Assembly: GCA_012960315.1 (NCBI GenBank)
Contig: DUBN01000076.1
Location: 1-64,000, forward strand
Source of the DNA: Acidimicrobiia bacterium
GTDB taxonomy: Bacteria; Actinomycetota; Acidimicrobiia; Acidimicrobiales; Poriferisodalaceae
DNA: 64,000 bases
Direction of reading: 5' to 3'
This document shows positions 2,897-5,562 of this stretch, in pieces. Within the stretch, counting starts at the first letter, position 1. The number at the start of each line of letters is the position of its first letter. The position numbers and the translations under genes were made by a program. Below the pieces are notes generated by a model. The model worked only from the letters and a program-made list of their open reading frames with translations, did not search any database and was not told where the DNA came from.

Positions 2897-3022
2897 CTAC
2901 ACCGAGATCAGGACCTGTGCCGCGAACGCGAGGAGGATGATGAGGCCCGTGACTAGGGATGCGATGATCAAAGCTCTGGTACTCACATCTGCTGAATCTA
3001 GCGTTCTTACAGGTTCTGGCAC
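2897..3022 (-). CDS. Small single-span membrane protein, 41 aa
   Basis: A short frame starting GTG at 3022 and ending TAG at 2897. The product starts MPEPVRTLDSADVSTRAL and continues into one hydrophobic stretch of about 20 residues (IIASLVTGLIILLAFAAQVL), followed only by a few residues. It has the layout of a one-pass inner-membrane micropeptide. A second GTG (before STRAL) would give 29 residues. It sits between lpdA and the divergent selenoprotein gene and is read toward lpdA. No function is known to me; confidence rests on the clean charged-head/hydrophobic-tail layout and the lack of any other gene here. Confidence 0.4.
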   Translation of the reverse strand: MPEPVRTLDSADVSTRALIIASLVTGLIILLAFAAQVLISV

Positions 3023-3036
3023 ATAGCCTTTGCTGC

Positions 3037-3597
3037 GTGAGAGCACTCCTTCGCTATACGGCGCTGTACCTATCGATCATGGCATTGGGCGCCTGTTCAA
3101 GTGATGGCGCATCCGGTGGTCTTGATGGAGCAGATGTGTCGGTCCTAAATCAGCCAGAGGTGCTTTTCGATGGCGGCTCCGCTTCACGCGACAAGGCGGA
3201 AACCACAGTGCCTGTCGAGTTAGCGGTGCTTGAGCGTTCGACGCTTAATGGAGCAATGTTTGACCCAACATCACTGGCGGGAAAAGAAGTTCTTTTGTGG
3301 TTCTGGGCGCCGTGGTGAGGGACCTGCAACAGGGAAGCAGCGGCGGTCGCCGCTTTAACAGTTAAAACTGACGTTGTGATCATCGGTATGCCCGGGCGTG
3401 ATGTTCGCAAGGCATACGAGTTGTTCGTTGAGCGTCACGAGCTCAGTCATATCCCCCAGATCGAAGACGTCGACGGAAGTCTTTGGAGCTATTACGGCAT
3501 TACTGCTCAGCCAGCTTGGATTTTTTTTGATCTTGAGGGAGGCGTTGACCGTGGACGTGGCCCGATACCCACGAAATTGTTCAAATCGGATGCGTGA
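3037..3597 (+). CDS. Sec-containing thioredoxin-like (TlpA/redoxin-type) lipoprotein
   Basis: A 186-residue thiol-redox lipoprotein if the in-frame TGA at 3316-3318 is read as selenocysteine. GTG start; a signal peptide with lipobox LGAC puts Cys20 at the lipid anchor. A low-complexity Ser/Asp/Gly linker precedes the redoxin domain, whose active site reads WAPW-U-GTC: Sec94 stands where thioredoxin-fold proteins have the nucleophilic Cys of CxxC, and Cys97 is kept. Beyond the TGA the frame stays open and thioredoxin-like (VVIIGMPGRD, then the cis-Pro region TAQPAWIFFDLEGG) to a second TGA at 3595-3597. A hairpin suited to act as SECIS follows the codon. The protein would face outside the membrane. 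Downstream are an SRPBCC gene (31 bases on) and a second lipoprotein. A nonsense mutation is the alternative, but is unlikely given the exact position of TGA. Confidence 0.87.
3339..3354 (+). promoter_or_regulatory. Putative bacterial SECIS hairpin of the UGTC gene
   Basis: AGCGGC-GGTC-GCCGCT forms a perfect six-base-pair stem with a four-base loop starting GG. The loop begins at 3345, leaving 26 bases after the TGA ending at 3318. Bacterial SECIS elements are known to sit just after UGA, within the coding region, with a small loop having a G in its first two positions and about 16-37 bases between UGA and loop; this fits. A smaller stem (CCTG-CAA-CAGG, 3323-3333) lies between. Recognition by SelB is inferred. 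Confidence 0.72.
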
Positions 3598-4548: not shown

Positions 4549-5562
4549 TCACCCGGGGTCTATCACCCAGACATCCTCTTCAAGGTTTCTTTCGAGTTTT
4601 CGTTGCAAGTCACCTAGCGTTCGGTCGTCCGCGTGCCGGACGAGAACAGCTTCGGTGGCGTACGTCATTATGGCGTCGTCCCGCCGACCCATTGCCTTTG
4701 CAAACTGCGAACTGGTTCTTGGCACTTCAGCGTTGACGATGATAATTGATCGTGCTCCTGCTAGCAGCTCGCTAAAGCGTCGTTGGGTTGCTTCGGGCCA
4801 TCGTTGCTCCATGCCTTCAAACGCGAGTACCACCACATAGGGAACGGCGGCGGCCGCGGCGGCTTCGGCGGCAAGCAACTCAACGCCAAGTCCCAGACCT
4901 GTGATCACCTGAAGGTCTGGGTGCAGCTCTAGCTTGGCCCTGAGCAGTTCTATCAGGCGGCGGCGCACGGACATGGTGGTTGAGTTCTCTCCGTATCCAC
5001 CCAGTTCGGGTGGCCGGTGACCGAAAACTGCGATGGTGTGAGCATTGTCACCGCGTTGGTTGGCGCTCGCGGATGCGCTTGAAGGGTTATCCCCTTCAAG
5101 CCCTCTGACGATCGCGTCAGTAAAAATGCCTCCAGATTGATTTTCTTGGCGAGCTGCCGCCGTCGTAGCGAGTTGATCCGCGGCGTCATTTAGGCGATGA
5201 CCCGAGTGTCCCTTCACCCAAACAAATTCGACGTCGGCTCGCGCATTCACTAACTCAATGAACGGTTCCCACAAATCGCGATTCGCGACGGGTTCCTTCT
5301 TTGAGTTTTTCCAGTCTCTTCTGTGCCACCCCTTCCACCACTCTTGGACAAAGCAATTAACGACGTAAGTCGAGTCGCTGTGGACGCGTAATGGGCCTTC
5401 AAGAGTCTGCACGGCCGCGCTAGCCGCAGTGAGTTCCATTCGCTGATTCGTGGTGTGCGGTTCGAACCCTGATAACCACGTTCCCTGGTCTACGACAAAT
5501 GCCCACCCGCCTGGGCCTGGGTTACCCAGGCACGCACCATCAGTGAATACGTCTGTGACCAT
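4549..5562 (-). CDS. rnhA: RNase HI fused to a SLOG/DUF1273-like domain
   Basis: A 337-residue fusion. Residues 1-140 are a complete type I RNase H, which cuts RNA in RNA-DNA hybrids: FTDGACLGNPGPGGW with Asp8, Glu43 in MELTAA, Asp63 in HSDSTYV, and KGHSGH...DAAD with His119 and Asp129, the full DEDD set. After a Ser/Ala/Asn linker, residues about 175-337 look like a Rossmann-type SLOG domain of the YpsA/DUF1273 kind: VFGHRPPELGGY, then ITGLGLGVELLAAEAA. SLOG domains bind nucleotide-derived ligands. Most RNase HI proteins are about 150 residues, so the second half is a true addition. It is divergent from aceE across an 80-base gap. Confidence 0.88.
   Translation of the reverse strand: MVTDVFTDGACLGNPGPGGWAFVVDQGTWLSGFEPHTTNQRMELTAASAAVQTLEGPLRVHSDSTYVVNCFVQEWWKGWHRRDWKNSKKEPVANRDLWEPFIELVNARADVEFVWVKGHSGHRLNDAADQLATTAAARQENQSGGIFTDAIVRGLEGDNPSSASASANQRGDNAHTIAVFGHRPPELGGYGENSTTMSVRRRLIELLRAKLELHPDLQVITGLGLGVELLAAEAAAAAAVPYVVVLAFEGMEQRWPEATQRRFSELLAGARSIIIVNAEVPRTSSQFAKAMGRRDDAIMTYATEAVLVRHADDRTLGDLQRKLERNLEEDVWVIDPG

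Follow-up and report, generated by a model that had tools for sequence, protein, structure and literature searches.

Since its closest solved relative by both sequence and predicted fold is DsbF of Mycobacterium tuberculosis (3ios), a gene in the window (the whole stretch of 64,000 nucleotides that was analysed) almost certainly encodes a DsbF/TlpA-type exported lipoprotein with selenocysteine (Sec) in place of cysteine, the in-frame TGA at its active site very probably specifying the Sec residue. The reading of an exported, membrane-anchored selenoprotein, first proposed from the letters of the sequence, gains support from the Sec machinery of the host genome, from homologues with Sec or Cys at the same position and from a covarying SECIS hairpin.

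A probable selenocysteine relative of DsbF

Translation from the GTG at 3037 begins VRALLRYTALYLSIMALGACSSD... and yields a predicted signal peptide with a basic n-region, a hydrophobic stretch and the lipobox LGAC with its invariant Cys20, followed later by LLWFWAPW-TGA-GTC, where the TGA is the sole in-frame interruption of positions 3037-3594. The frame then stays free of stops for 92 codons, a length reached in 0.8% of base shuffles. The Pfam families Redoxin, AhpC-TSA and Thioredoxin all scored above their cut-offs, and the AlphaFold model contains a domain block (residues 61-180) with pLDDT of 92-98. Among 39 aligned sequences the invariant positions were C20, G72, W88, F89, W90, P92, residue 94, C97, V104, W150 and G168. 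The sequence-only reading had described a lipoprotein frame with a TGA in the place of the first active-site Cys, continued by GTC and by a thioredoxin part with a cis-Pro; this description held throughout, from LGA-C20 over WAPWUGTC and Gln-cis-Pro to the terminal stop.

Features of the selenocysteine lipoprotein gene (positions in the window)
Feature	Position	Strand	Remarks
TAGCCT, -10-like box 7 bases before the GTG (putative promoter element)	3024-3029	+	CATAGCCT conserved in 18 loci
Gene for Sec-containing DsbF/TlpA-like lipoprotein	3037-3597	+	186 residues, GTG start, terminal stop TGA 3595-3597
Lipobox LGAC	3085-3096	+	codon 3094-3096 for Cys20, the predicted lipidation site; no variation of C20 among 39 aligned sequences; most relatives show the lipobox pattern
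TGA, probable selenocysteine 94 in WAPW-U-GT-C	3316-3318	+	frame, homologue alignment, stop-free stretch after the TGA
TGC, predicted resolving Cys97 of the UxxC site	3325-3327	+	invariant in alignment
Putative SECIS hairpin AGCGGC-GGUC-GCCGCU	3339-3354	+	stem 3339-3344/3349-3354, loop GGTC 3345-3348; comparative evidence
Gln158-cis-Pro159, predicted to face the active site	3508-3513	+	nearly invariant; cis-Pro expected from the thioredoxin fold

The closest solved sequence was M. tuberculosis DsbF (Rv1677, 3ios; E 1e-26 with the single sequence, 1e-48 with a profile), which was also the best Foldseek match of the AlphaFold model (126 columns with 40% identity, 2.0 A), followed by sequence and fold alike by M. 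tuberculosis DsbE/MPT53 (Rv2878c, 1lu4). The window protein has in common with DsbF the WFWAPW-C-xx-C site and the QPA cis-Pro loop, whereas DsbF carries Cys in the position of Sec and the C-terminus of the window protein is shorter; DsbE/MPT53, in turn, is secreted and Cys-containing, with the site WFWTPWC. As the actinobacterial DsbF/DsbE (MPT53) family is defined by CxxC and the window protein has UxxC, we filed it as a Sec variant or relative and not as DsbF proper.

UxxC selenoproteins of the thiol-disulfide isomerase-like group are on record from the Sargasso Sea (PMC1088965) and are still found in a list of 2026, together with a Redoxin PF08534 UxxC entry (PMC13188914). In the passages devoted to them, these cd02966 / PF08534 selenoproteins resemble the window protein in having Sec first in UxxC and a TlpA/redoxin fold, and a lipid anchor goes unmentioned in their descriptions there; the main text of the 2026 review makes no mention of lipoprotein, signal peptide or Acidimicrobi. 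Because lists of selenoproteins have included TlpA-like UxxC forms since 2005, the kind is already known: the window protein is a well-supported Sec variant of DsbF-type lipoproteins and not a new kind. The literature searched, also by combining selenoprotein with TlpA/Actinobacteria or Acidimicrobi, yielded no account of a lipid-anchored Sec DsbF. The earlier remark that lipid-anchored Sec redoxins appear unusual was right only in part, since related genomes of this order commonly carry the Sec form and both DsbF and TlpA-type UxxC proteins are known.

Among redoxin-domain selenoproteins, NCBIfam NF041054 (ResA-like WAxxUGC motif protein, WAxxUGC_long) matched weakly, with 31 bits being far below the 300-bit cut-off of this model of 354 positions. 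The ResA/TlpA/CcmG reductases and the pneumococcal Etrx lipoprotein thioredoxins share the fold and the membrane-anchored, extracytoplasmic location, but contain Cys only and show ~20-26% identity. The window protein would place selenium in disulfide chemistry outside the actinobacterial cytoplasmic membrane, in a protein directly related to one studied from M. tuberculosis; the natural Sec/Cys pairs with a clear GGUC SECIS set provide ready material for testing.

Proposed redox role

The product probably serves as a thiol-disulfide oxidoreductase at the outer surface of the membrane. According to the mechanism that we propose, the UGA would be decoded as Sec with the in-frame hairpin bound by SelB together with tRNA-Sec, as the machinery and the conservation suggest, and export, signal peptide cleavage and lipidation of Cys20, to which the invariant lipobox points, would leave the thioredoxin domain, of the DsbF/DsbE(MPT53) type, anchored at the outer surface of the cytoplasmic membrane. 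There Sec94 would act as the attacking nucleophile and Cys97 as the resolver in a cycle via a Sec-Cys bond, acting on exported proteins, whose disulfides or oxidised residues would be reduced or, less likely, oxidised. The most likely recycling partner would be the CcdA/DsbD-type membrane protein in the genome. The genome encodes one DsbD_TM protein and gave no VKOR match, which speaks for the proposed mechanism. The DsbD_TM protein has its own adjacent Cys TlpA-like partner, and this partner of the CcdA gene counts against CcdA recycling of the Sec lipoprotein. At locus L091 (5968-8064, minus strand), the CcdA-like gene has as neighbours the Cys TlpA-like gene and one resembling a poly-gamma-glutamate hydrolase gene.

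We slightly favour the reductase direction, since Sec-Cys bonds are as a rule weak oxidants. The same selenoprotein could instead act as an oxidase (a DsbF-like disulfide former) or as a peroxide/sulfoxide reductase and not as a general disulfide reductase, which we regard as a sizeable minority possibility, the Sec-Cys pair being usually more reducing than a disulfide. In vitro, the closest solved relatives, M. tuberculosis DsbF and DsbE, behave as oxidants and oxidise hirudin, and a DsbD-type protein is their presumed partner (PMC3853704); a role as oxidase or in peroxidatic chemistry is therefore kept in consideration. On the same side, the missing VKOR match in the host genome might create a need for another oxidant. 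Beyond this single protein, an order-wide lineage of lipid-anchored Sec-DsbF with repeated Sec/Cys switches might form a selenium-based thiol system outside the cytoplasm, represented by several copies in certain genomes and reduced along a path apart from the CcdA-TlpA pair, an idea that we put forward tentatively and consider rather doubtful.

Decoding of the TGA

The genome assembly containing the window (2.8 Mb, ~97% complete) was searched for the components of Sec incorporation, the absence of selB and tRNA-Sec having been named beforehand as evidence against a selenoprotein. This objection falls away because the host genome carries SelB, SelA (named from its sequence) directly adjoining SelB, SelD and a tRNA-Sec with anticodon TCA (65 bits vs the 47-bit cut-off, in agreement with ARAGORN), so that all four components looked for are present. 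The selD gene (L041, own genome C4:3866-4801) itself has an in-frame TGA.

A search of 148 related genomes returned many relatives of the Sec lipoprotein. Reading 69 loci in frame gave TGA at the motif in 60 and Cys in 9, so both forms aligned at residue 94 were found, and the 60 TGA-bearing genes align through the TGA at the same codon position, with the parts before and after it both matching relatives; homologues that end before this point, which the sequence-only reading had listed as a possible objection, are not the pattern observed. A separate downstream gene from GTG 3376 was considered and rejected because homology runs through the TGA. TGA-bearing matches occurred in 69/103 SelB-positive vs 0/45 SelB-negative genomes (Fisher p=2e-16, optimistic given relatedness), a count of 69 that includes weaker matches, the TGA position being confirmed for the 55 genomes of the aligned set. 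Cys relatives with WFWAPWC were found at 80 loci in actinobacterial and uncultured bacterial records, the named genera including Mycobacterium, Mycolicibacterium, Streptomyces, Micromonospora, Lentzea and Ilumatobacter, among others; the scan for named relatives used the pattern WFWAPWC and so could return Cys forms only. A tree was built from 149 domains over 125 columns, many of its forks being weak. A single clade (98/94) unites 38 Sec rows that belong without exception to the window's family, the window's own row among them, and at least 7 Sec/Cys changes are needed across the tree. Furthermore, dN/dS after the TGA was 0.06-0.47 in 8/9 close pairs, pointing to purifying selection, with the value near 1 of the closest pair (L011/L012) coming from very few changes. 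Some genomes of the family also possess a second Sec paralogue (L062, L063) of ~380-390 residues, with a lipobox, the motif WAPWUPNC and a SECIS of the same kind as in the Sec lipoprotein gene.

The check for a SECIS element likewise turned up a hairpin with covariation. The hairpin had been placed 26 bases after the TGA; its six pairs and GG-first loop stood, while the distance of 26 applies to the start of the loop and the stem begins 20 bases past the TGA. In an ungapped alignment of 60 downstream stretches, paired cells amounted to 83.6% vs 63% in shuffles, double-changed cells, i.e. compensatory stem changes, to 54 vs 19.5 and the covariation score to 0.389 vs 0.096, and sliding the pairing partner reduced all three measures. 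The loop GGTC (GGUC) is present in 58/60 TGA genes vs 2/9 Cys genes. The two outermost stem pairs are retained in part of the set only, and the sequences without them may adopt a bulged register. Moreover, the five core codons GCA GCG GCG GTC GCC are identical in 18 close genes while flanking third and other synonymous positions vary, which argues for constraint on the RNA and not on the protein alone. The fold energy of the hairpin region in the single sequence was nothing unusual (z -0.68), and hairpin stability alone was dropped as evidence, the case for the hairpin being comparative. With the family SECIS model, the rest of the own genome yielded no convincing selenoprotein (E 0.003 for the best other locus; four such loci inspected); the model is tuned to the Sec lipoprotein family and hence a weak test for others.

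A true stop or a mutation, with the frame being a pseudogene or a sequencing error, would agree with ORF calling by standard rules, which terminates the gene at residue 93, i.e. at the active site, but is extremely improbable given the same codon in 60 homologous genes, the restriction of TGA-bearing matches to SelB-positive genomes, purifying selection past the TGA in most pairs and the covarying hairpin. Insertion of another amino acid (Trp, or general read-through) has precedent in natural TGA read-through and is just as implausible in view of the complete Sec machinery, the conserved hairpin, Cys as the aligned residue in relatives and the TGA that serves as the gene's own terminal stop.

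Upstream region and gene neighbourhood

The start of the Sec gene is apparently leaderless, with the TAGCCT box as its putative promoter element. The interval 2986-3037 holds back-to-back leaderless-looking starts, a TAGATT box lying 8 bases before the GTG of a microprotein gene on the minus strand, and both boxes are conserved across related genera. This gene (2986-2897, minus strand), divergent from the Sec gene and upstream of the E3-E2 genes, encodes a 29-aa single-pass membrane microprotein, (V/M)STRALIIASLVTGLIILLAFAAQVLISV, for which no family exceeded the cut-off in Pfam and none was found in NCBIfam; it is present in 29/30 loci of the family and in 85/148 genomes of the order.

A 2-oxoacid dehydrogenase E3-E2 pair lies divergent to the Sec gene, downstream of which come a gene for a 148-aa protein that matches nothing in Pfam, a Septum_form-like lipoprotein gene, an RNase H/YpsA fusion gene and a pyruvate dehydrogenase E1 gene. 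This order is mostly kept in the other genomes compared, the flanking genes being better conserved than the Sec gene. The fusion gene (4549-5562, minus strand) joins an RNase H domain to a YpsA/SLOG domain.
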